Shown here piece by piece: positions 6,820-18,627 of a DNA stretch of 64,000 nucleotides. The notes under the pieces were generated by a model. It did not search any database, was not told the origin of the DNA, and saw nothing but the letters and a program-made list of their open reading frames with translations. The stretch covers positions 62,001-126,000 of the forward strand of contig JABLWW010000010.1 in assembly GCA_013178295.1 (NCBI GenBank). The letters are read 5' to 3'. Source of the stretch: Anaerolineae bacterium (GTDB taxonomy: Bacteria; Chloroflexota; Anaerolineae; Anaerolineales; Anaerolineaceae). A program made the translations under genes and the position numbers. Each line of letters begins with the position of its first letter. Within the stretch, counting starts at the first letter, position 1.

Positions 6820-7992
6820 TCAGACATTGCGTATCGGGTAATTTCCAACCCTGCGAGCGGTTTCAAGCATGGCAAGGTAATATGCAGGTTTGACACCCGG
6901 GTGCACAGAGTTGCTGGTGGACAACATGAATCCGCCGCCCGGCGCAGCAGTTTGGATGATGCGTTCTGTCTCCCGGCGCACGAGGTCTATCGGACCATCT
7001 ACCAGCACTGTTGAACAGTCCACGTTCCCAATCAGGGTTAGTCGGTCACCGTAGCGGCGTTTCAGGTCAGCAATGTCCATACCGGCGCGCGGCTCGATGG
7101 CTTGAAAGCCGTCAACACCAGCGTCAATCATATCCTCAATAAGGGAATTAACATTGCCGTCGGTATGTTTCACATAGACCCCATTGTAGCGATGGCATAG
7201 TTCGGTGATCTGCCTGAGGCGTGGAAAGACAAACTGCCGGAAGTGGCGCGGTGAAAATACTGGCCCCTTTTGGGCTGCCCAGTCATGTCCCCCGTGCAGA
7301 CCGTCTACGCCGCGCCGGAGCATTTCTTCTCCCAGCATGAGAGCGGTTTTGAGGTTTGCGTCCAGGTAGCGGTGTATCAGGCTGGGTGCCTCGATAAGCC
7401 CAATGAGAAAAGTCTCTGCCCAGTCCCATGTGGAGCCGATTTCGACATCTGCCATGCCCAGCACCATGCGGTCTTTTCCCAACTGCTCAATCAGGATGTC
7501 CACGGGTGTAAAATCCCAGTCTTCCAGGGAGGAGGGATGCGTTTCTAGATATTGAGTTAAACGTTCGAGTTCAGCTAATCCACCCCGATGTAGGGATGAA
7601 TCGACCTGATCATATGTGTCGCTTTCGGGTGCATAGCGGCATAGGCGCCATTGGCCGGTAGCTGGGTCAGTGAATCGCCAGGTGTTTTCGTCAACCTGCT
7701 CTGGAATTTGGTAGCTGCGTTGCCACGGCATTGCCATGGGATATACATCCAAATCAAGCGCTTTCCACAGGGCGATTTCATCCGTCAGTCTTTGATGGTT
7801 ATATTGGGCAATCTTTCCCTGCATCAAAGCTTGGTTTTGTGATACGCCGCGCGCCATGCCGCCAAAGCCGCACAGGTTAGGGCGCCCAAGAACTTCCGCC
7901 GCGGTGGGGTTATCAATGGTCAACTCGAAGATGGGTACTCGATCGGCTTCTTGATGTGCAAAAGCCAGCCTTGCGCGTTCCTTTCCGTTCAC
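6820..7992 (-). CDS. UroD-like (URO-D/MtaA superfamily) protein, copy 1 of 3 in the sugar operon
   Basis: A 390-residue TIM-barrel protein of the uroporphyrinogen decarboxylase superfamily, last gene of the operon and three bases after the GH31 gene. It begins RVPIFELTIDNP where true HemE has the RQAGR substrate-binding motif, so it is not a heme-pathway enzyme. Near residue 274 it has HTDGN at the place where MtaA-type methyltransferases carry a zinc-binding H-x-C, and near 350-360 it ends the barrel with STSNSVHPGV. Relatives include methylcobalamin:CoM methyltransferases and many uncharacterised proteins. The context implies a role in using the imported sugar. The reaction is unknown. Confidence 0.85.
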   Translation of the reverse strand: MNGKERARLAFAHQEADRVPIFELTIDNPTAAEVLGRPNLCGFGGMARGVSQNQALMQGKIAQYNHQRLTDEIALWKALDLDVYPMAMPWQRSYQIPEQVDENTWRFTDPATGQWRLCRYAPESDTYDQVDSSLHRGGLAELERLTQYLETHPSSLEDWDFTPVDILIEQLGKDRMVLGMADVEIGSTWDWAETFLIGLIEAPSLIHRYLDANLKTALMLGEEMLRRGVDGLHGGHDWAAQKGPVFSPRHFRQFVFPRLRQITELCHRYNGVYVKHTDGNVNSLIEDMIDAGVDGFQAIEPRAGMDIADLKRRYGDRLTLIGNVDCSTVLVDGPIDLVRRETERIIQTAAPGGGFMLSTSNSVHPGVKPAYYLAMLETARRVGNYPIRNV

Positions 7993-7995
7993 AGC

Positions 7996-10437
7996 TTATG
8001 CCTCGAATGTGATGATCTGCGGCTGACGACCGTCATACGTGACAAAACATCCACCTTCTGGGAGAGGCTGAATGGAAAGAGGCACTGTACCCATTTGTGC
8101 CTTGCGAGGTGTAATTCCATATAGTGCGATTTCGATCTGCCCCGCAGCCGCACCGGTATGCACTGTCAGGGTCGCATCGCGATACTCGTAGCTGACTGGA
8201 ATGCTGGTTTGGGCATCTGTGTAGATTGTGTAGGCGTTGTTTTGCGCGGGAGCATAGATTTCAATGGTGAGTGGGTCGCAGGGTTTTTCTTCGGTGTGCT
8301 GAAGGACAGGCCCGAAAGGTAAAATAGCGCCGCCGCGCACAAACAGGGGCAGGATATCCAGCGGCGCTTCTATATCGAGCCAGCATCCGCCCTGAACAAC
8401 CTCCTTGCTCCAGTAATTCACCCAAGCACCTTCTGGCAGGTATACTTTGCGCCGGTTGCTCTCATCCAGAATGGGGGCTACCAGCAGGCTGCTGCCAAAA
8501 AGGTATTGGTCTTCGATTTTATGGGTGATCTCATCTTCCTGATATTCCAGCACCAGGGCGCGTACCATTGGCAGACTGGTACGGCCACATTCGACCGCCT
8601 CGCTGTAAATGTATGGCAGCAAACGATAGCGTAGTTCATCGTAGCGGCGGAAGATGCTTTCAGCCTGTTCGCCATAGAACCAGGGTTCGCGGGGCGGTTG
8701 CCCGTGTGTTCGGGTGTGCGATGAAAAGAATCCCAATTGTGCCCAGCGGACATATAGCTCAGAGCAGGGCAAGCCACAAAACCCGCCCAGATCATGGCTG
8801 TAGAAAGGAAAGCCGCTCATGCCAAAACTCAGTGCCGAGCGTAGCACACACGCCAGGTCCTCAAAGCGGGCAATGCCGTCTCCTGACCAGTGTACCGGGT
8901 AACGCTGGGAACCAGCCCAGGCGGAGCGCGCCCAGATGATGCCCTGCCCTTTGCCGTAAAACTCCTCTGTCATCTCGAAAATTGCTTTGTTATACAGCAA
9001 GGGATAGAGGTTGTGCATGGATTCGCTTGGGTACCCATGATAGATGGCATCGGGAGGCGCACCCTCGCCAAAGTCGGCTTTGATCACCGACACGCCGGAG
9101 CGGAAAAGGCAGAAAAATTTTTCTTTTAACCAAGAAATGGCTTCGGGGTTTGAGTAATCAATCAGCCCGGCATCTTCCAGGAAGCCGGGGAAGGTGTATG
9201 TCTTGCCATTGGGTCGTTTTACCAGATAGCCTTTTTCGCTGCCTTCGTGGAACATCGGTGAACTGATGATGATGTTCGGACATTGCCAGAGCGAGAGCCG
9301 AAACCCGTCCTTGTGCAGCCGTTCGGTCATTGCATGTGGGTCAGGGAAATTCTTTTCGCCAAAACACAAATCCACTTCCCATTCGCGGTTGTACCAGCCG
9401 GTATCAATATGAATGACGTCGCACGGAATGCGGTGCGCTCTCATCTCTTTTGCCACCTGTTCAACCTGTTCCTGGCTGTTATAGGTGATACGTGCCAGCC
9501 ATAGCCCAAAACTCCACTTTGGCGGCACAGCTGGTTGTCCTGTGATGGCGGTGTAGCGCGGCAGAATTTCTTTGAGGGTTGGGCCATAGATAAAATAAAA
9601 GTCAAGCAGGTTTGTATCTTCCACAATGGTGGATATGGCGGTGTAATCAAAGTCGCCGACGTGAAAAGCAATGGCATTGGATGTGTTCACATAAAGTCCA
9701 TACCCGCGTGTGGACATATAGAACGGTGTATATTTATATGCCGCTGGCGAGGCGTTCCCATAGGCCTCCTGCACCCATAGGCGTTTGTAGATACCGCGCT
9801 TGTCAAAGGGCCCAAAATCTTCTCCCAGCCCGTAGATATGTTCGTTGTAGTGCAGGTCAAAAGAAGCAAAAACGCGTTGGCAACCCCCGCTATGGCTCCC
9901 TAGCGGATATGCATAGCGGTGCATAAAAAGCCAGCGTTCCTGCGGTGGATTCCACTGTACCTCAGGGCGGCGCAATGGTTCTATATCCACGGCTCGAGTG
10001 CTCCAGATTCGTTCACCTGCCAGGTTATATGCCTCCAGTCGGAAAGGTTCTCGTATGACCACCAGACGCAAGCGAGATGTTTCGAAGGTTACGCAGCGCT
10101 CATCCTCCCGCATTGTTACTGCAACAGGCTGTTCAAACTTTGCCACAACCATAGGGGTTTGTATATCGGGAACTTCACTGCCCGGGTAGTAGCGTACTCG
10201 AATGATGTCTTCTGTGCAGAAATCCAGGCGAATGGTTACCGGCTTGCCGGGTTTTGCTGGTTCAAAAACCAGCTCAACCAGTGTCCCATAGCTGTTGTGC
10301 AGATGTGGTTCGTAATGCCCGCTGGCACACTGCAGCAGTGCCGTGTTGCCCGATAGACTGACGCTTTGCAATTGCGTCACCAAATCTACGGGGACAGTTT
10401 CACCAAGGAATGTAGGGATTTGATAACATTTGCTCAT
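7996..10437 (-). CDS. Glycoside hydrolase family 31, alpha-xylosidase (YicI)-like
   Basis: Predicted cytoplasmic retaining alpha-glycosidase of 813 residues. The open frame starts at TTG 10470, but ATG 10437 has a GAAGGTTA ribosome site and begins MSKCYQIPTF, so I use it. The catalytic nucleophile motif KADFGEG (D near residue 454) and acid/base motif HWSGDGIARFE (D near 520) follow the YicI pattern, as do ARSAWAGSQ and SHDLGGF. No signal peptide is visible. With the GH1 enzyme it would take apart alpha-xylosylated glucans such as isoprimeverose, though alpha-glucosidase activity cannot be excluded. It sits between the ABC permeases and UroD-like copy 1. Confidence 0.9.
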   Translation of the reverse strand: MSKCYQIPTFLGETVPVDLVTQLQSVSLSGNTALLQCASGHYEPHLHNSYGTLVELVFEPAKPGKPVTIRLDFCTEDIIRVRYYPGSEVPDIQTPMVVAKFEQPVAVTMREDERCVTFETSRLRLVVIREPFRLEAYNLAGERIWSTRAVDIEPLRRPEVQWNPPQERWLFMHRYAYPLGSHSGGCQRVFASFDLHYNEHIYGLGEDFGPFDKRGIYKRLWVQEAYGNASPAAYKYTPFYMSTRGYGLYVNTSNAIAFHVGDFDYTAISTIVEDTNLLDFYFIYGPTLKEILPRYTAITGQPAVPPKWSFGLWLARITYNSQEQVEQVAKEMRAHRIPCDVIHIDTGWYNREWEVDLCFGEKNFPDPHAMTERLHKDGFRLSLWQCPNIIISSPMFHEGSEKGYLVKRPNGKTYTFPGFLEDAGLIDYSNPEAISWLKEKFFCLFRSGVSVIKADFGEGAPPDAIYHGYPSESMHNLYPLLYNKAIFEMTEEFYGKGQGIIWARSAWAGSQRYPVHWSGDGIARFEDLACVLRSALSFGMSGFPFYSHDLGGFCGLPCSELYVRWAQLGFFSSHTRTHGQPPREPWFYGEQAESIFRRYDELRYRLLPYIYSEAVECGRTSLPMVRALVLEYQEDEITHKIEDQYLFGSSLLVAPILDESNRRKVYLPEGAWVNYWSKEVVQGGCWLDIEAPLDILPLFVRGGAILPFGPVLQHTEEKPCDPLTIEIYAPAQNNAYTIYTDAQTSIPVSYEYRDATLTVHTGAAAGQIEIALYGITPRKAQMGTVPLSIQPLPEGGCFVTYDGRQPQIITFEA

Positions 10438-10471
10438 AAGTAACCTTCTTCGATGCCATGATTTTTTCAAA

Positions 10472-10499
10472 CATCTGACAGGCGTGTGCCTGTCAGATG
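10472..10499 (-). terminator. Perfect hairpin between permease and GH31 genes
   Basis: CATCTGACAGGC (10472-10483) is mirrored exactly by GCCTGTCAGATG (10488-10499) around a GTGT loop. On the transcribed strand it is followed by TGTTTGAAAAAATC, with no clean U-tract. It probably slows or trims the transcript between the transporter and GH31 genes rather than stopping it completely. Confidence 0.6.
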
Positions 10500-10530
10500 C
10501 AGAATTTGCTTGCTTATCGTGGGTTTGATT

Positions 10531-11355
10531 TTACCCTTTTACTGCCCCTTCGACCATGCCGCGCATAAAATATTCGCGTGTGATCAAAAAAATGGCGATA
10601 GCTGGAATCATGATGACCACGCAGGCGGCTGCCAGCAATTCATCTTGGTTTCCTTCCAGAACGTGTTGAAAGTCGAATAAACCAACGGTTGCCATTTTCA
10701 TATCCGTTTTAGAGATGAGCACAAGTGGGGTAAAGAAGTTATTCCAGCTGTAAACAAAGTTGATCAGAAACGTGGCGATCAGCCCTGGCAAAGTGATGGG
10801 CATAACAACCTGGAACAATGCCTGGACGGGGGTTGCTCCATCGATTGCAGCGGCTTCTTCAAGGACGCGTGGGATGCTTTCGAAAAAGCCTTTCATGATC
10901 CAGATGCCCAGTGGTATACCGTAGGCGCCAAATACCAGGATCATGATGGTGTAGGTGTTGATCAGCTTCAGATCACTGGCGATGCGATAGATGGGAATAA
11001 TACTGACCAGACCGGGCAGCATCATCATCCCAAGCACATAGGCGTTCATGATGCGTTTGCCCTTGAACTCCAGGCGGGCAAAGGCGTAACCTGCCAGAGC
11101 AGCCAGCGCGGTGGAAATGATTGCGCCTCCAGCGGCATTGATGATGCTGTTGAGAATGTAGCGTGGGAATTTTCCATAGATGAACAGACGTTGGTAGTTT
11201 TCCAGCGTCCAGATGTCAGGGATAATGCTCAACAGCCCGTAGCCTGGTCTGTGGAGCGAAACCAACACCGCATAAACGACGGGAAATAGTATGACGATGC
11301 AAAAAGCAATCAGGAAGGCGTTGATCAAGAGATTGATGGCGTTTTTTTGCTTCAT
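10531..11355 (-). CDS. Carbohydrate ABC transporter permease, MalG family
   Basis: Inner-membrane half of a CUT1-type sugar importer, 274 residues with about six membrane spans, the first being AINLLINAFLIAFCIVILFP. The EAA loop that contacts the ATPase (LEEAAAIDGATPVQALFQ) lies near residue 168. It is 21 bases downstream of the MalF-type gene. No ATPase gene is present in the operon, so a shared MsmK-like ATPase elsewhere must energise it, as is common for CUT1 systems. Confidence 0.95.
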   Translation of the reverse strand: MKQKNAINLLINAFLIAFCIVILFPVVYAVLVSLHRPGYGLLSIIPDIWTLENYQRLFIYGKFPRYILNSIINAAGGAIISTALAALAGYAFARLEFKGKRIMNAYVLGMMMLPGLVSIIPIYRIASDLKLINTYTIMILVFGAYGIPLGIWIMKGFFESIPRVLEEAAAIDGATPVQALFQVVMPITLPGLIATFLINFVYSWNNFFTPLVLISKTDMKMATVGLFDFQHVLEGNQDELLAAACVVIMIPAIAIFLITREYFMRGMVEGAVKG

Positions 11356-11376
11356 GACAGGTTTTTCTCCTTTCGC

Positions 11377-12243
11377 TTAGCCTGCCAATGCATTCTCTCG
11401 TTCGAGAGCGCGCAGGTAGAAGGCTGCCAGGACGATGTTGATCAGCAGCAAGACAACAGAAAGCGCAGCCGCGTAGCCAAAGTTGTAGAACTGCATCGCT
11501 TCGCGGTACATGTGCAGACCGAGAATTTCGGTGGCGCGCCCGGGTCCGCCTTCAGTAATTGCCAGCACCATGCCCACACCGTTAATTGCCTGAATGGTGA
11601 GGAAAACTGTGGTTACAATGGTGGTGGGTCTCACCAGTGGCCAGGTAACTTTCCAGAAAGAGTTCCAGCCGTTTGAGCCATCAATGGACGCAGCTTCGTA
11701 GATCTCGCGTGGAACGGTTTGCAGTCCGGCCAGCAGGAGCAACATGCCGAAGCTGATTGACCGCCATGTGGTGGCTGCAATGACAATTGCCATTGCCCCC
11801 CAATTGGTGGTAATTAAGGCTTTGCCCTTAAAGATTGGCGCAAGCAGGTTCTGGATAATGCCGTAATCCTGATAGAACATCCAGCGCCAGACAACCCCCG
11901 AGGTGATTTCTGAAAGCACCCAAGGCAGGAAAATAATCGTCATGTAAACACCGGTTAACTTTAGTCCACGGTTGAGCATGAGGGCAAGAATATAGGCAAT
12001 AATGACAGTCAGAAGGACATAAAAAACCGTAAAGATAATCGTTAACCACAGGCTTTGTCTAAAGTCGGCACTTCTGAGAATAATGCTATAGTTTCGCAGC
12101 CCCACAAATTCTATGATACCTTTCTTGCTACGAGTCATGGAAAGGTAAAAACTGTACAGGGTAGGATACAGGCTGACAATGGTGATGAATACCAAAGCGG
12201 GTAGCGTAAGCAGGTATGGATATAGCGAGAGCTTTTTTTTCAT
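11377..12243 (-). CDS. Carbohydrate ABC transporter permease, MalF family
   Basis: Second permease of the sugar importer. The frame is open from 12312, but ATG 12243 follows AGAGGAAG and gives MKKKLSLYPYLLTLPALVF, a normal permease N-terminus of 288 residues. The EAA loop YEAASIDGSNGWNSFWKV is near residue 184. About six transmembrane segments are visible. It follows the binding-protein gene after a strong hairpin and pairs with the MalG-type gene downstream. Confidence 0.95.
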   Translation of the reverse strand: MKKKLSLYPYLLTLPALVFITIVSLYPTLYSFYLSMTRSKKGIIEFVGLRNYSIILRSADFRQSLWLTIIFTVFYVLLTVIIAYILALMLNRGLKLTGVYMTIIFLPWVLSEITSGVVWRWMFYQDYGIIQNLLAPIFKGKALITTNWGAMAIVIAATTWRSISFGMLLLLAGLQTVPREIYEAASIDGSNGWNSFWKVTWPLVRPTTIVTTVFLTIQAINGVGMVLAITEGGPGRATEILGLHMYREAMQFYNFGYAAALSVVLLLINIVLAAFYLRALERENALAG

Positions 12244-12284
12244 AAGGAACTTCCTCTTTTGCCACTCCATAATGACGGGGATGC

Positions 12285-12314
12285 GTATGTGGGCAGGTTT
12301 CCCTGCCCACATAC
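12285..12314 (-). terminator. Perfect 13-bp hairpin after the binding-protein gene
   Basis: GTATGTGGGCAGG (12285-12297) pairs perfectly with CCTGCCCACATAC (12302-12314) around a four-base loop. No U-run follows. Hairpins between a binding-protein gene and its permeases commonly protect the upstream mRNA and raise binding-protein output relative to the permeases, as in malE-malF. The same role is inferred here. Confidence 0.7.
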
Positions 12315-12330
12315 CGGAATTATGCTTGTA

Positions 12331-13671
12331 TTACCAGTACTTGGTAAGCAATTCATCCTGAGTGGCTTGCAGTTTGGTCATGGGATCAATCTTAGGATCG
12401 AGCATGATCTCCTGCATGGCAGCAGCCAGGGCATCCATACACTCGTTGTAATAGGGGCTGGTGTCGGACTTGTGACCATACTTAGTCAGATTGTCGCGGG
12501 TATCAGCGTAGAACTGACTGTCGAAGATGGGGTTCTGAAGCGCAGCTGCGGTGGCGGGGATGCCGTAGTTAGCTTTTGCCCACGGTGCCAACACCGCTGG
12601 GTTGAAGAAGAAGTTGATGAACGCGATGGCGTTGTCAACATTCTTGGCTCCGCTGGTCAAAGCCCATGTTTCGGTGTTCATGAACACATAGCCCTGATTG
12701 CCAGCCAGACCGGGCGGAGGCCCGATTTTGACTTCACCTGCCTCAAAGCGCTCTTTGAGCCCGGCGATGTAAATATAGGACCATGAGCCGCCGCGCACTG
12801 CGCCTGCGGTTTTGTCAACAAAGGGCGCTTCGGTAGCTGACCAGTCGCCAGTAAAGGCGACCTCGGGGATGCACTTGTTTGCCAGCATCTTGCGCAGCCA
12901 GTTGATTGCCATGACGGTTTTGTCGTTAGCAAAGACAGGCTTGCCTTCCTCATCGAACATCTGCCCGCCTGCGGACCAGACCAGCGGTGCCAAACCCTGC
13001 TGAATGGCAGCCGAGTGGCGGCCAAGGAATGCGGTGGCGACATATTTGCCTTCTTTGCTGAGACGCTGGCATTCTTTATCCCAACCTGCTTCGTCGGTTG
13101 GCCAGCCATCCGGGAACATGGCAACATCGTAGTACCAGTTACCGCCGCTGACAAAGGTGCCTACCGCGTAGCGTTCGCCGTTAACTTCGTTGAGCGCCTT
13201 TTCAAACTCATTCAGGTCGCTGTAGAAGAAAGATGCTTTGATCTGATCATTGATATTCATCAACGCTCCGGCATTGATTAGCCCCTGAACGTATTCGTAG
13301 GCAACCATGATCAGGTCAGGCATATCGCCGCCTGATTGCGCGGCTACAGCAACTTTGGTTGCCATTTGGTCCCAGGCTACCTGTTCGTACTCAACTTTGA
13401 TCCCTGTTGTTGCCTGGAAGGAGTCGATTGCTTGCTTCATCATGACCGCGCGGCTGTCTTCTGTGTTGGTCAAGTCGTAAAAGCCCCAGATGCGCAGCGA
13501 ACCAGCTTCTTTCTCTACGGGCACTTCAACTTGCTTCTCAACAACTTTCTCGACTTCTTTCTCAACGACCACTGTCTCAATAACCTTTTCAGGCGCGGGC
13601 GGGGTGCAGGCACTCAGCACCATCACCGCAATGGTGAGCAGGGCGATGACAATAAAAAAGCTTTTTTTCAT
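12331..13671 (-). CDS. Sugar ABC transporter substrate-binding lipoprotein (family 1)
   Basis: Extracellular receptor of the importer, 446 residues. A signal peptide ends in the lipobox LSAC (Cys21). A Val/Glu/Lys-rich linker (about residues 29-56) tethers the binding domain and is typical of Chloroflexota proteins. The mature part starts with SLRIWGFYD and contains the family 1 patterns VEYEQVAWDQM and PDLIMVAYEYV. The start ATG 13671 has the ribosome site GGAGGAAAAAGG. It lies between UroD-like copy 2 and the permeases. The ligand is unknown; the neighbouring GH1/GH31 genes suggest an oligosaccharide. Confidence 0.94.
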   Translation of the reverse strand: MKKSFFIVIALLTIAVMVLSACTPPAPEKVIETVVVEKEVEKVVEKQVEVPVEKEAGSLRIWGFYDLTNTEDSRAVMMKQAIDSFQATTGIKVEYEQVAWDQMATKVAVAAQSGGDMPDLIMVAYEYVQGLINAGALMNINDQIKASFFYSDLNEFEKALNEVNGERYAVGTFVSGGNWYYDVAMFPDGWPTDEAGWDKECQRLSKEGKYVATAFLGRHSAAIQQGLAPLVWSAGGQMFDEEGKPVFANDKTVMAINWLRKMLANKCIPEVAFTGDWSATEAPFVDKTAGAVRGGSWSYIYIAGLKERFEAGEVKIGPPPGLAGNQGYVFMNTETWALTSGAKNVDNAIAFINFFFNPAVLAPWAKANYGIPATAAALQNPIFDSQFYADTRDNLTKYGHKSDTSPYYNECMDALAAAMQEIMLDPKIDPMTKLQATQDELLTKYW

Positions 13672-13753
13672 TTTCCTTTTTCCTCCAAAATTGATAGTTT
13701 GTTGATTATTTTGCGAACCGACAAGGAACTGCTAAAAACTTGAGAGAAAAGAC

Positions 13754-13764
13754 ATCACCTCCTT
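13754..13764 (-). other. Orphan consensus Shine-Dalgarno with a 7-codon mini-ORF
   Basis: On the minus strand AAGGAGGTGAT exactly complements the usual 16S 3' end. The only start next to it is an overlapping ATG that opens a seven-codon frame (MSFLSSF, stop). It lies seven bases after the UroD-like copy 2 stop and about 80 bases before the binding-protein start. It could be a leader peptide or ribosome loading site, or a relic. Confidence 0.35.
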
Positions 13765-13770
13765 CTTAAT

Positions 13771-14934
13771 TTATCCAAACATCTGGCTGGGTGGACACTG
13801 ACGAGCAGCCTGATACATGGCTGCCAGGTTGTTGAGAGGCGTTCGTGGTGCCAGGTTGTTCCCTTCCCGCAGAATAAACTTGCCGCCGTAACATACACCT
13901 GAAGTCAGGATGCGATAAGTCTCCTGGTACACTTCTTCTGGTGAGCCGCTCTTAAGTAGCATCACATTTGGCCCGCCCCAGAGCGTGACCTCAGTCCCGA
14001 GCTCCTGACGCAGCACCCCAAAATCAATCGGAAATCCGGTGTCGAACTCGTAAGCGCCGATTTCGTCACGCAGGGTTTTAAAGTGGCGGGTGGCATCCCC
14101 GCAAAGATGAATTTTGACTCGTTCAGCGCTGGTGAGACCCGCTTTTAATTTTTTGTAAACAGGGATCATGAAGGTCTTGAGCAATTTTTCAGAGATGAGT
14201 TGTATCGCATCGTCGGCAAAAAACAGGTCAGGGGCGATCTTTTCCTGTCCAAAGAACTGCCGATGGGCATGTATTCGCGCGATCGTTGCCTCTGTGATGA
14301 AGTCCAAAAGCTGCTGGACGTATTGCGGGTCGTCGTAGAAATCGGTGAATAACTCGCTTCCTCGCAGGGCGTGGGCGATAGTAAGCGGTCCGCAGGTGTA
14401 GTGCCCAAACAGATCAATGTGTATGGGACGTCCCAGATAATATGGCTGACGCGCCACCAGCTGGCATATCTCTTCGTATATCTGATGTGCTTTGTGGTAC
14501 CATCCGCCATACAGCGGGTCGGGAAGGCCCTCATCGAAGAGTGCATTTTTTCGGTCTCCTTGCAGGATGGGGGTGGTATCTGGCACCTGACCGGGAAGGA
14601 AGGCAACCGGAGCGCCGAAATAAGCAGCCTCATCGAAGTTCTGCAAATCAACTTTGACCACAAATTTTTCCGGTAAACCAATCGGGTCATCACAATACGG
14701 GGCAATATTTTCTGCGCGCCACACAGCCGCGCGCAACTGGAAGCCCAGCATGGTTTGGGCATCACAGCAGTATTTTTCAAAGGAAACAGCCTCACCAGGG
14801 TTAAGTTCGTCATTGAAGATAAAGAATTGTGTATTGGTTCCCAGAAAGACAGGGGGTCTTTGCGGATTCCCGGCATAGAAGGCTTCCCAAACAGCTTTTG
14901 CTTCTGAGTTATGCTTCTCCACAGCTGTGCTCAT
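13771..14934 (-). CDS. UroD-like protein, copy 2 of 3
   Basis: A 387-residue member of the URO-D superfamily, very different from copies 1 and 3. It lacks the HemE RQAGR motif. Near residue 275 it has HLCGD, matching the H-x-C half of the zinc site of MtaA/CmuA methyltransferases, and the barrel ends with FILREGNNLAPRTPL. Its ATG overlaps the lacI stop codon by four bases, so the two are translationally coupled. No corrinoid protein gene is nearby, so a methyltransferase role is possible but unproven. Confidence 0.85.
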   Translation of the reverse strand: MSTAVEKHNSEAKAVWEAFYAGNPQRPPVFLGTNTQFFIFNDELNPGEAVSFEKYCCDAQTMLGFQLRAAVWRAENIAPYCDDPIGLPEKFVVKVDLQNFDEAAYFGAPVAFLPGQVPDTTPILQGDRKNALFDEGLPDPLYGGWYHKAHQIYEEICQLVARQPYYLGRPIHIDLFGHYTCGPLTIAHALRGSELFTDFYDDPQYVQQLLDFITEATIARIHAHRQFFGQEKIAPDLFFADDAIQLISEKLLKTFMIPVYKKLKAGLTSAERVKIHLCGDATRHFKTLRDEIGAYEFDTGFPIDFGVLRQELGTEVTLWGGPNVMLLKSGSPEEVYQETYRILTSGVCYGGKFILREGNNLAPRTPLNNLAAMYQAARQCPPSQMFG

Positions 14935-15992
14935 GTAGAGTGTTCCCTTGTTTGTTTTGGGGGAGTGCTGTCTCGAATGACCAGTTGGGGCTGAAGCAGA
15001 ATGCTGCTGGCTTCTATGAAAGTGCCGTCGCGGCGGGCTTGTATCCTGCGATGAAGCTCGCGCATGGCTAACTTTCCTGTTTCGATATGATTGCGGCGAG
15101 CGGTGGTCAGCGATGGGGTGTAGTATGCGGTTGGGGGGAAGTCGTCAAAGCCAGCGATTGCCAGTTTCTCTGGTACGGCGATCCCCAACTCGGCTGCAGC
15201 GTGCAGAGCGCCCAATGCCATCTCATCGCTGCTGACAAACAGGGCATCCATTTGTGGATATTGGTTCATCAGACGGCGCAGCCCGGCGTCGCCGCTGGCG
15301 GCGCTCCAGTTACCGACGGCAATCTGATTTTCTGTGATCGCAATGCCGCGTTCAGTCAACGCCTCACGCCAGCCAGCAAAGCGCTGTTGAGAATCCCACC
15401 CGTCACTTGAGCCGGTGATAATGCCGATGTTTTCATATCCCTGCTCTAACAGATGACGGGTGATCAGATAGGCGCCATGACGGTCGTCTGTCCCAACAAC
15501 TGTCAGTCCTTCGGTTGGGCGGGCGTTGACAAAAACAATGGGGACGCTTTGCAGCAGGCGAGCGCGTTCGGGTTTTCGCCACCAGGCATAATTATCGCCA
15601 AATTCGGGGACGACCCACAGGATTCCACTTACCTGATGTGACAGCAAGCTGCGCACTGGCTTTTCCAGGTCTTTTGGAATGGGCTCGTCCATGATAGATA
15701 GAATTAACGAATATCCAAATTCCGTGCTCTGTCGCTCAATTCCAGCAAGAAAGAGGTTGGGCCCAGTGTACTCAAGACTGCTGACCATGACCCCAATGTT
15801 GTTTGAACTTTGTTTTACCAGGTTGCGCGCTACGAAGTTGGGATGATACCCCAGTTGTTCGATGAGATTTTCAATTCGCTGACGGGTTTCCTCTGAGACA
15901 TCCGGGGCATTGTTGATGACCCGCGACACTGTCTGCATGGAAACCCCTGCCAGATGTGCGATTTCTTTGAGGGTAACGCGCGAGCTGGTCAT
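14931..15992 (-). CDS. LacI-family transcriptional regulator
   Basis: A 353-residue repressor with an N-terminal helix-turn-helix (about residues 6-27, LKEIAHLAGVSMQTVSRVIN) and hinge helix, followed by a periplasmic-binding-protein-like sensor domain (from about residue 63, NNIGVMVSSLEYTG). It lies inside the operon, starting directly after the stop of UroD-like copy 3 and overlapping the start of copy 2. It is the obvious candidate to bind the palindrome downstream of the operon promoter, with a sugar as inducer. Confidence 0.95.
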   Translation of the reverse strand: MTSSRVTLKEIAHLAGVSMQTVSRVINNAPDVSEETRQRIENLIEQLGYHPNFVARNLVKQSSNNIGVMVSSLEYTGPNLFLAGIERQSTEFGYSLILSIMDEPIPKDLEKPVRSLLSHQVSGILWVVPEFGDNYAWWRKPERARLLQSVPIVFVNARPTEGLTVVGTDDRHGAYLITRHLLEQGYENIGIITGSSDGWDSQQRFAGWREALTERGIAITENQIAVGNWSAASGDAGLRRLMNQYPQMDALFVSSDEMALGALHAAAELGIAVPEKLAIAGFDDFPPTAYYTPSLTTARRNHIETGKLAMRELHRRIQARRDGTFIEASSILLQPQLVIRDSTPPKQTREHST

Positions 15993-17108
15993 TTAGATAA
16001 TTACTCCTTCTCGCTCTAACAAAACAAGAGCTGCTTCTCCTTCTTGGGGCGTCAGATCGCGATGCCCTAGATGCTCAGATTCTTCCCATAGATAGAAAGC
16101 AAATCCCTTCCCACCCAGTGCCTGTATGATCTTTTGAGCGCCTTGTGGGGTTACATAAAGCTGACAGAGTTTTCCTGCTGAGCGGATGCCGCTCAACAGG
16201 TCAAGCCATTCCTCCGGTGGAGGGGCACCTTCGCCGGGGATCCACTGAATGCCCTTGAGATTGGGTATCTCCAGAATGCTTTTCAGATGAGGAATCTCCC
16301 CTTTGCCGTCTAAATGATAGAAACCATACGGCATGGATTGACAACATGCTACCAGGTCGGGGAGCGCATATTTTGTAAACATGCGCGGAGAGATCATATA
16401 ACTGAGGTCGGACTGCAGCATATAGCCCGCTTGCGGCATCCATAAAGGTGCCCAACCACAGCAACCGTGCTGCTGGATGCTCATCGTACAAAGGCGTTTG
16501 AAGCATTCCAGCCAGATAGAGGTAATCTGACCTGTCAGCCGTATCACCTCATCGGGCATTTCCACCATCGCTGTCAGCAGTCTCTCGCTGCCGCATAAAC
16601 TTGCCAGGATGTCGAGGTTGCCGCCCAGATCGGTGATGCCAACACAGAGATGGTCCCCCCAGCGTTCAACAGCCGCTCGGGTAACAGCTTCAACACGCTG
16701 CCACCAGGGGTTACCCCAGTCAATGGAGGGTTGGAATGCTCCGATATCTGACACGTCGGTTTCTTTCAGCGGCTCAAACCAGGTGGTGCCATTGGCAAAT
16801 TTGACGGGGCTGCCCAAGCATCCCGCCAAAATGCCAGGGCCAAAATTGGGATACCATCGTGGGAGGGCATCACCCATCCAGTGGACAGAATCCAGGACAA
16901 TTTGGATCGTATTGAGTATTTGCTCGGTGGGAGTGTCTAATCCGTATTGGGTTAGGTTGGGATACAAATCGGCAAAGGAGAAGCTACTCGAAGCCTCATA
17001 GGCTTCGATGATAATCATTGGGCGTTCCAGTGAACCGTCCCACCAGGTTTGCCAGGTCTCTGATATGCGTGCCCAATCAGCAGAGGTAAAATCAGCCGTA
17101 TGAGTCAT
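15993..17108 (-). CDS. UroD-like protein, copy 3 of 3
   Basis: A divergent URO-D-superfamily protein of 371 residues. ATG 17108 is chosen over 17117 because it has GAGGG nine bases upstream and gives a four-base ATGA overlap with the GH1 stop; the earlier ATG would touch the ribosome site. The N-terminus ERPMIIIEAYEASSS replaces the HemE motif. Near residue 266 it has HLDGKGEIPHL where methyltransferase relatives have H-x-C, so like copy 1 it has H-x-D. Function unknown; co-expression with GH1 and LacI links it to the sugar pathway. Confidence 0.8.
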   Translation of the reverse strand: MTHTADFTSADWARISETWQTWWDGSLERPMIIIEAYEASSSFSFADLYPNLTQYGLDTPTEQILNTIQIVLDSVHWMGDALPRWYPNFGPGILAGCLGSPVKFANGTTWFEPLKETDVSDIGAFQPSIDWGNPWWQRVEAVTRAAVERWGDHLCVGITDLGGNLDILASLCGSERLLTAMVEMPDEVIRLTGQITSIWLECFKRLCTMSIQQHGCCGWAPLWMPQAGYMLQSDLSYMISPRMFTKYALPDLVACCQSMPYGFYHLDGKGEIPHLKSILEIPNLKGIQWIPGEGAPPPEEWLDLLSGIRSAGKLCQLYVTPQGAQKIIQALGGKGFAFYLWEESEHLGHRDLTPQEGEAALVLLEREGVII

Positions 17109-18523
17109 TTTATCCATCCCTCAGTGTTGAAGAGTGGCAGTGAGCAACCGTTGCTTGAAATCACATTTTTATACCAGGATGCGGATTCCTTCAAAATGCG
17201 TTTTTGAGTCTGAAAGTCAACATAGATTAATCCAAATCGCTGGCGGTATCCCTCTGCCCACTCAAAGTTATCCATAAGCGACCAATGGAAGTAACCGCGT
17301 ATGTCCACACCTTCCATATACGCCTGACGTAGGGCTGATAGATAGCGTGAGGTGAAATCAATGCGCTGTGGATCATGGACTTGATTATCTGCGGCAACCC
17401 AGTCAGGGGTGGAGAGACCGTTTTCGGTAATAATAATGGGGGTGCGGTAGCGTTCATACAGAAACTTTGGTCCCCAATAAAGCGCCTGAGGAGTCACTGC
17501 CCAGTAAAAATGTGTCAATGGATAACCTGCAGGGAAGTCTATCAGCTGGTATCCATTGTGTTGGTTTGCCCTGACAAAATCGCCGCGATAGATGTTCGCT
17601 CCATAAAAATCAAGCGGCTGAGCAATGATATCCATATCGCCAGAGCGAATTGACGGAATCTGGCTGCCATAGAGACGTAGCCCGTCTTCGGGGTATTGCT
17701 TAAAGAATATTGGGTCGGCGAACCAGGAGTTGTTCCAGAAGGTGTAATCAGTAACGGCAAACATTGCCTTGCGGGCTGCTTCAATATCTTCGGTGGAGTT
17801 GCTGAGAGGAATCTTAACACTGCCCACGGATGCAATGCCAACACGAACCCTTTGGCACGCGCTGGCGCGTATTGCCAACACGGACTTCCCATGAGCCAGA
17901 AGGACGTGATGTGCGGCAATAAGCACTTCGTTCCAGGGGAGTTTTAGCCCTGGGGCGTGGGTGCCTTCCCAATGTCCCAGCCCAATAAATGCTTGGGGTT
18001 CGTTGATGGTCATCCAGTTGGTTACACGGTCGGACAGGCGCTCAACCACCTTTGATGAATACTCGGCGAACCAGTCTGGGCTGTTTGGGTTTAACCACCC
18101 CCCTGCAAGGTATAACTCATAGGGATAATCCCAATGAAAAAGGGTTACATAGGGGGTAATTCCAGCGGAAAGAAGCTCATCCACCAGGCGCGAATAGAAA
18201 TCAATACCTTTCTGATTGAGTTGCCCAACACCCTTCGGAAGAACACGCGGCCATGAAATAGAAAAGCGATATGCCTGGAGACCAATCGCTTTCATCAGGC
18301 GTATGTCGTCTGAGAAACGGTGGTATGTGTCACAGGCGACCTCTCCAGAGTGTCCCCCGAATATTTTTTGCGGCTGTTGACAGAAGGCATCCCACACCGA
18401 TAATCCTTTTCCATCGGCGGCAGACGCGCCCTCCACCTGGTATGCGGCAGTTGCTGCCCCCCAGACAAAGTGGTCGGGAAAACAGAGTTTAGAAGAGCGA
18501 GTCGCCTTTGGCTCCTTAGACAT
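17105..18523 (-). CDS. Glycoside hydrolase family 1 beta-glucosidase/beta-glycosidase
   Basis: Cytoplasmic retaining beta-glycosidase of 472 residues, first gene of the operon. The N-terminal FVWGAATAAYQVEG signature, the acid/base glutamate in TINEP (near residue 174) and the nucleophile in ITENG (near 365) are all present. No signal peptide. No Shine-Dalgarno precedes ATG 18523, although the predicted leader is about 110 bases long. It would release beta-linked glucose or galactose from imported oligosaccharides. The family also contains 6-phospho enzymes, but ABC import without a PTS argues for the non-phosphorylated type. Confidence 0.94.
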   Translation of the reverse strand: MSKEPKATRSSKLCFPDHFVWGAATAAYQVEGASAADGKGLSVWDAFCQQPQKIFGGHSGEVACDTYHRFSDDIRLMKAIGLQAYRFSISWPRVLPKGVGQLNQKGIDFYSRLVDELLSAGITPYVTLFHWDYPYELYLAGGWLNPNSPDWFAEYSSKVVERLSDRVTNWMTINEPQAFIGLGHWEGTHAPGLKLPWNEVLIAAHHVLLAHGKSVLAIRASACQRVRVGIASVGSVKIPLSNSTEDIEAARKAMFAVTDYTFWNNSWFADPIFFKQYPEDGLRLYGSQIPSIRSGDMDIIAQPLDFYGANIYRGDFVRANQHNGYQLIDFPAGYPLTHFYWAVTPQALYWGPKFLYERYRTPIIITENGLSTPDWVAADNQVHDPQRIDFTSRYLSALRQAYMEGVDIRGYFHWSLMDNFEWAEGYRQRFGLIYVDFQTQKRILKESASWYKNVISSNGCSLPLFNTEGWIK

Positions 18524-18613: not shown

Positions 18614-18627
18614 CGTGAACGTTAACG
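18614..18627 (-). promoter_or_regulatory. Putative LacI-family operator of the sugar operon
   Basis: CGTGAACGTTAACG is a 12/14 palindrome centred on CG, the symmetry expected of LacI-family sites. It lies about +9 to +22 from the predicted start of the operon transcript, a classical repressor position. The in-operon LacI protein is the probable ligand. Confidence 0.6.

Follow-up and report, generated by a model that had tools for sequence, protein, structure and literature searches.

What do three genes of the UroD superfamily do in an operon for sugar use? The question is raised by a 64,000-nucleotide stretch of DNA from an Anaerolineae bacterium (contig JABLWW010000010.1, positions 62,001 to 126,000 of the forward strand; this whole stretch is called the window, and positions are given within it). 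According to the list of open reading frames (ORFs), nine genes follow each other on the minus strand in the order GH1, U1, LacI, U2, solute-binding protein, two permeases, GH31 and U3, where U1, U2 and U3 denote the UroD-superfamily genes. Importer, LacI, GH1 and YicI-like GH31 are the parts of an ordinary oligosaccharide operon. Our tentative answer, to which we give a probability of roughly 0.4, is that U1 to U3 are substrate-side transferases (methyltransferase I, MT-I, type) for methyl or similar groups on modified sugars, with the corrinoid and folate machinery acting in trans. An earlier sequence-only reading had described three UroD-like genes amid GH1, GH31, LacI and an ABC sugar importer, and this arrangement is borne out by the ORFs, by Pfam and, for U1, by its family profile:

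17105..18523, minus strand: GH1 beta-glucosidase, lead gene of the operon (Pfam Glyco_hydro_1, E 8.5e-151; matches to PDB beta-glucosidases)
15993..17117, minus strand: U1, highly divergent probable UroD-superfamily protein, placed via its family profile
14931..15992, minus strand: LacI-family regulator (Pfam LacI, E 6.6e-22; Peripla_BP_3)
13771..14934, minus strand: U2, UroD-superfamily protein (Pfam URO-D, E 1.3e-17)
12331..13671, minus strand: ABC solute-binding protein (SBP), sugar type (Pfam SBP_bac_8, E 3.8e-28)
11377..12312, minus strand: ABC permease 1, sugar type (Pfam BPD_transp_1, E 7.9e-14)
10531..11355, minus strand: ABC permease 2, sugar type (Pfam BPD_transp_1, E 4.5e-17)
7996..10470, minus strand: GH31 alpha-glycosidase, YicI-like (Pfam Glyco_hydro_31, E 3.5e-91)
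6820..7992, minus strand: U3, UroD-superfamily protein (Pfam URO-D, E 7.5e-21)

Judged from sequence, membership of the UroD superfamily is clear for U2 and U3, whose profiles match each other at 99.3% (E 9e-21). By itself U1 matched no Pfam or NCBIfam model. It is a probable member via the profile of its family: URO-D was matched (E<=1) by 12 of the 21 members of the U1 family alignment, the best at 2.1e-5, and the U1 profile matched that of U2 at 95.6% (E 1.1e-8) and, weakly, that of U3 at 41.5% (E 2.7e-4). The fold was modelled for U3 only. This model, built from five sequences (pLDDT 70.8, pTM 0.78), matched UroD (HemE chains) with a Z score of 27.4 and MtaA with 26.0; ranked by E-value in Foldseek, MtaA came first. 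A single-sequence model of U1 reached a pLDDT of 40.5 and was set aside and not used. A tree was built from 42 UroD-superfamily rows, with 7 of the 20 aligned U1 relatives among them; U1, U2 and U3 each grouped with their own relatives in it, with support of 100/99 or better. On this tree they are separate, well-supported clades and no recent duplicates.

We asked whether the trio could be paralogues from haem synthesis or decayed HemE copies. The Pfam label URO-D and the HemE chains among the PDB profile matches would fit such an origin, which is nevertheless extremely improbable. The HemE motif RQAGR occurs in none of the 11 UroD-like proteins found in the 97.8% complete genome (10 Pfam matches plus U1), the NCBIfam hemE model (cut-off 302.95 bits) gave 24 bits for U3 and did not have U1 or U2 among its matches, and U1 to U3 form conserved clades of their own. 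HemE paralogy was thus rejected on motif and score. The NCBIfam model mtaA_cmuA likewise stayed far below its cut-off, and the trio is assigned to the UroD superfamily as neither HemE nor MtaA. The lack of RQAGR in all three, already pointed out in the sequence-only reading, holds; since the motif is also missing from the other 8 UroD-like proteins of the genome, its absence does not single out U1 to U3.

To follow the three clades, relatives were sought in a class sample of 297 other genomes. These surveys scored at most 3 to 7 candidates per genome, such that counts are lower bounds. Near full-length U1 relatives (43-53% identity) occur in at least 21 of the 297 genomes, U2 relatives (37-45%) in at least 13 and close U3 relatives (67-75%) in at least 5. 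A U1 with an internal stop (L055) was excluded from the U1 alignment and kept in the count of 21, while a U1 split by frame (L072) and partial matches in G110 and G134 were excluded from both. A partial U2 (L159) was left out of the U2 alignment of 12 relatives (36-44%) and kept in the count of 13; the U3 of G220, split into two fragments on two contigs, was left out of the U3 alignment and kept in the count of 5.

The sequence-only reading had rested the link to methyl groups on superfamily resemblance alone. Because corrinoid or folate one-carbon genes accompany a small number of the relatives, methyl transfer rests on more than that. In G284 a U2 orthologue ends a cluster of a corrinoid protein, an S-methyl_trans-like gene, DUF1638, three UroDs, the activase RACo and three more UroDs. 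The gene order in G275 is GH2, U2, a U1-like gene and MtaB, and in G099 a U1-like gene is followed by MtaB. In G204, U3 follows a methylene-tetrahydrofolate (THF) reductase and DoxX on the same strand, downstream of GH31.

The genome under study itself encodes corrinoid machinery away from the window: a corrinoid protein with S-methyl_trans and the single RACo found (contig C10, L172), an MtaB-like protein with a corrinoid protein and a divergent LacI-like gene (C5, L173), and a corrinoid protein with MttB (C1, L174). RACo was present in this genome and in 14 of 14 U-bearing genomes tested (as a fragment in G275) versus 1 of 5 family relatives; RACo and the B12-binding_2 domain were checked in a hand-chosen 14 of the 35 U-bearing genomes. 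Three further observations concern the same genome. The locus L173 on C5 (C5:84000-103900) may put a further corrinoid methyl system under control of a regulator of the sugar type. Elsewhere on C5 (L012:8272-11832) a B12-binding protein and a UroD share one run with a histidine kinase to which a DUF1638 domain is fused, possibly a sensor tied to corrinoid methyl transfer. On C20 (L013:8772-10148) a UroD with a fused C-terminal thioredoxin-like domain adjoins a CobW GTPase, a class II aldolase and an FGGY-like kinase, which resembles a cluster for the salvage of sugar phosphates or methylthio compounds.

The link to sugars was assessed from the neighbours of the relatives, labelled with a panel that was partly picked near U genes and partly assigned by eye (Gfo/Idh, sulfatase, RbsA, SDR). 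A glycosidase-type gene lies within ~4 kb at 5 of 21 U1 loci: GH42 (L064) and a GH141-like beta-helix protein (L069), each as the next gene, GH106 (L055), GH38 (L049) and a remote GH31 on the opposite strand (L057). A sugar kinase or importer is found near U1 at three further loci (L051, L059, L053). For U2 the number is 3 of 13 loci, with GH2 (L156), GH106 (L151) and a GH141-like gene (L150); other genes next door to U2 are of GlcNAc-2-epimerase type (L147) or carry a SIS domain (L153, L155). Close U3 relatives have a glycosidase nearby in 2 of 5 genomes. In G049 (L138) U3 adjoins a GH1 of 54% identity, and G204 (L139) has U3, the methylene-THF reductase, an importer at 57-59% and a GH31 of 62% in a same-strand run. 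An importer also lies near U3 at L137, while at L140 to L142, where the contigs end near U3, no sugar gene is visible. The sequence-only reading had taken rarity of glycosidases beside such genes in other genomes as evidence against its own idea; on these counts the association is not clearly rare.

GH31 relatives at 57-62% identity were found in three genomes, two of which hold U3 without U1 or U2 (Fisher 6.8e-4; this and the other Fisher values were computed after the loci had been seen and ignore relatedness, and three of the five U3 genomes belong to one family). GH31 and U3 share one contig in G204 and lie on separate contigs in G176. In the third genome importer and GH31 stand in a row without a UroD (L190), so that U3 is an accessory to the importer-GH31 core.

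What chemistry the proteins may carry out was addressed from conserved residues. Alignment of U1 with 20 relatives (42-51% by tblastn) gave 55 invariant columns, among them nine Trp and the motif FYHLDG, i.e. H268-x-D270-G. The corresponding invariant motifs are H276-L-C278-G in U2 and H276-x-D278-G in U3, and several invariant Asp residues are retained in U1 and U3. In MtaA zinc is bound by H-x-C and a later Cys as third ligand. The H-x-C of MtaA aligns with the H-L-C-G of U2 and the H-x-D-G of U3, while the H-L-D-G of U1 aligns with that of U2, through which alone U1 is placed relative to MtaA. The later Cys of MtaA has no Cys counterpart in the U2 and U3 alignments. By these residues neither U1 nor U3 resembles an MtaA-type thiol methyltransferase. 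At the H-x-C position CdmB, aligned to U2, carries S-F-Q-G, and PMC13222342 describes it as working without zinc. A missing zinc site thus does not rule out a corrinoid-dependent MT-I role for the U proteins. Among PDB entries the U2 profile matched MtaA (4ay7, E 1.1e-10) and CdmB (9rui, E 1.1e-6), and the U3 profile matched MtaA best and CdmB at E 4.2e-6; the sole match of the U1 profile was CdmB, at a non-significant E of 0.49.

The same residues would also suit UroD-fold enzymes that act on sugars by corrinoid-free chemistry, e.g. aldol reactions, decarboxylation, isomerisation or group removal, with H-x-D-G and acidic residues as metal or acid/base site. The Asp-containing motif in place of H-x-C and the invariant Asp residues of U1 and U3 favour this idea, as do the nine invariant Trp of U1 and the neighbours: relatives lie near GH42, GH106, GH2, GH141-like, GlcNAc-2-epimerase and SIS-domain genes more often than near corrinoid genes, as counted with the biased panel. 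However, U2 and U1-like genes do adjoin MtaB and occur in a corrinoid cluster, and we know of no UroD-superfamily member with such corrinoid-free sugar chemistry. We consider this alternative somewhat unlikely.

If methyl transfer is correct, do the three proteins form one pathway? The sequence-only reading had taken the retention of three unlike copies in one transcript as a sign of an undescribed step in oligosaccharide use. With at most 3 to 7 candidates scored per genome, none of the other 297 genomes holds all three genes, and the trio is therefore peculiar to its own genome within the sample. U1 and U3, or U2 and U3, had no genome in common on the same count; U1 and U2 co-occur in 4 genomes (p 0.009), where they lie 110 kb from each other or on separate contigs. 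None of the three was found at the above identity levels in 5 genomes of the same family and 14 of the same order, two of which gave weak U3 matches (E ~1e-21 to 1e-22). A phylum sample of 400 genomes, which overlaps the class sample, contained no U3 at E<=1e-70 other than that of the genome under study. Plasmid searches returned no U1 relative and only remote relatives of U2 and U3. Scanning genome contigs with U3 gave one remote relative, in a Bathyarchaeota metagenome-assembled genome. At a Bathyarchaeota locus (L185) an SGNH-like hydrolase and a mandelate-racemase-like gene, both labelled by eye, accompany three UroDs, so that an archaeon has a comparable multi-UroD arrangement.

Tandem UroDs as such are frequent: 8 of 20 U1, 6 of 12 U2 and 1 of 6 U3 relatives have a further UroD within 3 kb, and in a first look up to 84 UroD-like candidates were seen in one genome of the class sample. 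The theme of UroDs with a glycosidase is repeated at L049 (UroD, U1, UroD, Gfo/Idh-like, GH38) and L151 (four UroDs, then GH106). The trio itself is no conserved unit. The methyl idea has gained support, and the idea of a single three-enzyme pathway has not.

This distribution brings up a further explanation, namely that U1 to U3 are unrelated passengers which joined the operon separately, each with a small substrate of its own (e.g. in the salvage of nucleosides or S-methyl compounds, or in a pathway linked to a dehydrogenase), and that only U3 is tied to GH1 and GH31. Besides the absence of the full trio elsewhere and the GH31 relatives that accompany U3 alone, partner genes point in this direction. 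A subgroup of E1alpha dehydrogenase subunits (>=70% identity) is present in the genome under study and in 5 of 5 U3 genomes, compared to 34 of 297 overall (Fisher 1.5e-5), with no clear enrichment in U1 genomes (5 of 21, p 0.076) or U2 genomes (2 of 13, p 0.45). In G193 the gene before U1 encodes an amidohydrolase; its NCBIfam matches, none of which reaches the cut-off, include 5'-deoxyadenosine deaminase. Against independent passengers speak the packing of U1 to U3 around the same LacI and glycosidases, the recurrence elsewhere of at least three other UroDs grouped with a glycosidase, as at L049 and L151, and the co-occurrence of U1 and U2 in more genomes than chance would give. On balance we hold this explanation to be unlikely.

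E1alpha adjoins U3 at L137 and L140 and is one gene away at L139; the two lie on different contigs in G220 and G049. It is also found 1 to 5 kb from U1 (L062, L054) and beside GH31 in G049 (L196). This association hints at a common downstream pathway for the products of U1, U3 and GH31. In the genome under study E1alpha is located on C15 (L205), together with AFOR, a TIM barrel gene of xylose-isomerase-like type and, as read by eye, an E2-like gene. At that locus (C15:64000-83900) an E1alpha/E1beta pair follows each of two AFOR-like genes. At L140 a YgeY-type hydrolase and a carbamoyltransferase-like gene lie near U3, and at L054 a YgeY-type hydrolase with xanthine-dehydrogenase-like and hydantoinase genes lies near U1. 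Together with L137, these YgeY-type loci recall clusters for purine or allantoin breakdown.

Several observations weigh against corrinoid-dependent methyl transfer from sugars. Within the operon there is no corrinoid protein, activase or folate gene. A corrinoid gene was detected near 1 of 13 U2, 0 of 21 U1 and 0 of 10 U3 loci, counted by tblastn with one corrinoid protein and partly on short contigs. The MTHFR-like gene beside a 38% U3 relative in G029 (L143) is convergent to it. The B12-binding_2 domain does not discriminate, as it is present in 20 of 20 genomes including the family relatives. With the label panel, and on contigs some of which are short, 13 of 21 U1 loci have no sugar gene within ~4 kb, and 4 of 10 U1 loci of 16-20 kb (L058, L060, L065, L068) have neither another UroD nor a sugar gene. 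U1 (L054) and U3 (L137, L140) also reside in YgeY- or hydantoinase-type clusters. Finally, H-x-C is missing from U1 and U3, and HemE chains score equal to or above CdmB against the U2 and U3 profiles.

The operon layout agrees in part with the gaps or overlaps of 3-4 bases given in the sequence-only reading. From the coordinates, GH1 and U1 overlap by 13 and LacI and U2 by 4 nucleotides, U1 and LacI abut, and short gaps separate GH31 and U3 (3 nucleotides), SBP and permease (18) and the two permeases (21). Longer gaps, for which the earlier description does not hold, lie between U2 and SBP (99 nucleotides) and between permease and GH31 (60). Three signals flank the genes:

18670-18642, minus strand: promoter-like site 5' of GH1, consensus match only
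18614-18627, minus strand: palindrome just downstream of the promoter-like site, possible LacI operator, consensus match only
6697-6674, minus strand: terminator-like stem after U3, consensus match only

These signals are compatible with a single transcript and do not prove it. Promoter-like sites in the region numbered 15, compared to 10.9 (sd 3.2) after shuffling; for terminator-like sites the numbers were 12 and 12.5, and these sites are no more frequent than chance would give. No anomaly in GC content marks the operon. Concerning the glycosidases, GH1 passed the NCBIfam BGL model with 533.2 bits (cut-off 478.5). The best PDB match of GH31 is the alpha-glucosidase 5f7c, with YicI second, and at 551.2 bits it did not reach the cut-off of 606 of the alpha-xylosidase YicI equivalog NF007940 (NCBIfam). 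Xyloglucan, which the sequence-only reading named for growth experiments, is thus a conjectural substrate.

For methyl transfer in trans the following course can be envisaged. An oligosaccharide would be imported by the ABC system of the operon and cut by GH1 and GH31. Each UroD-superfamily protein would then deal with a single modified sugar or sugar fragment, which would sit with its methyl (or similar) substituent in the pocket of the TIM barrel. The methyl group would be passed to a corrinoid protein encoded elsewhere in the genome (on C10, C5 or C1), which would be kept active by the single RACo, and from there onward to folate or homocysteine. In this scheme we infer methyl as the group, sugar as the substrate, action in trans and three different substrates, whereas superfamily, operon layout, corrinoid machinery and neighbour patterns are read from the DNA. 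A wider and more doubtful proposal is that the U1, U2 and U3 clades, as ancient branches of the UroD superfamily, represent a class of carbohydrate-tailoring enzymes within glycosidase operons, which would free rare sugars of methyl or other small groups, one enzyme per modification, via genome-wide corrinoid/folate machinery or by a new corrinoid-free mechanism.

In the open-access literature searched, outside of which many journals lie, we found no published link between UroD proteins and sugars; in the accessible part of a paper on rhamnose regulons (PMC3870299) the words decarboxylase and uroporphyrinogen were not found. If sugar demethylation is true, it would provide a route for anaerobes to use methylated polysaccharides and a substrate class for UroD-superfamily methyltransferases of so far unassigned substrate. 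Many genomes of this class hold large numbers of UroD-like proteins, and with three enzymes, two glycosidases and one regulator the operon is a small, tractable set.

Among characterized systems, CdmB, the corrinoid-dependent chloromethane MT-I of Acetobacterium dehalogenans (9rui), shares the UroD superfamily with the trio, and its C-terminal part aligns with U2 and U3. Its relatives include the O-demethylase proteins MtvB, OdmB, VdmB and MtoB. The similarity of this group to the U proteins is remote, cdmB sits beside genes for a corrinoid protein and a methyltransferase II (MT-II), and the substrates are haloalkanes or methoxyaromatics. MtaA, the soluble coenzyme M methyltransferase (4ay7), is the top PDB sequence match for the U2 and U3 profiles; it differs by its H-x-C plus later Cys, of which U2 retains H-x-C only; the motif in U1 and U3 is H-x-D. 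Type I mlp clusters likewise hold several UroD-superfamily genes per cluster and, according to PMC10418091, comprise at least two Mlps, a corrinoid protein and a Ram/RACE gene in the same direction. The present operon has neither a corrinoid protein nor Ram, and it contains glycosidases. From ordinary operons of GH1, YicI-like GH31, ABC importer and LacI it is set apart by its three UroD-superfamily genes.

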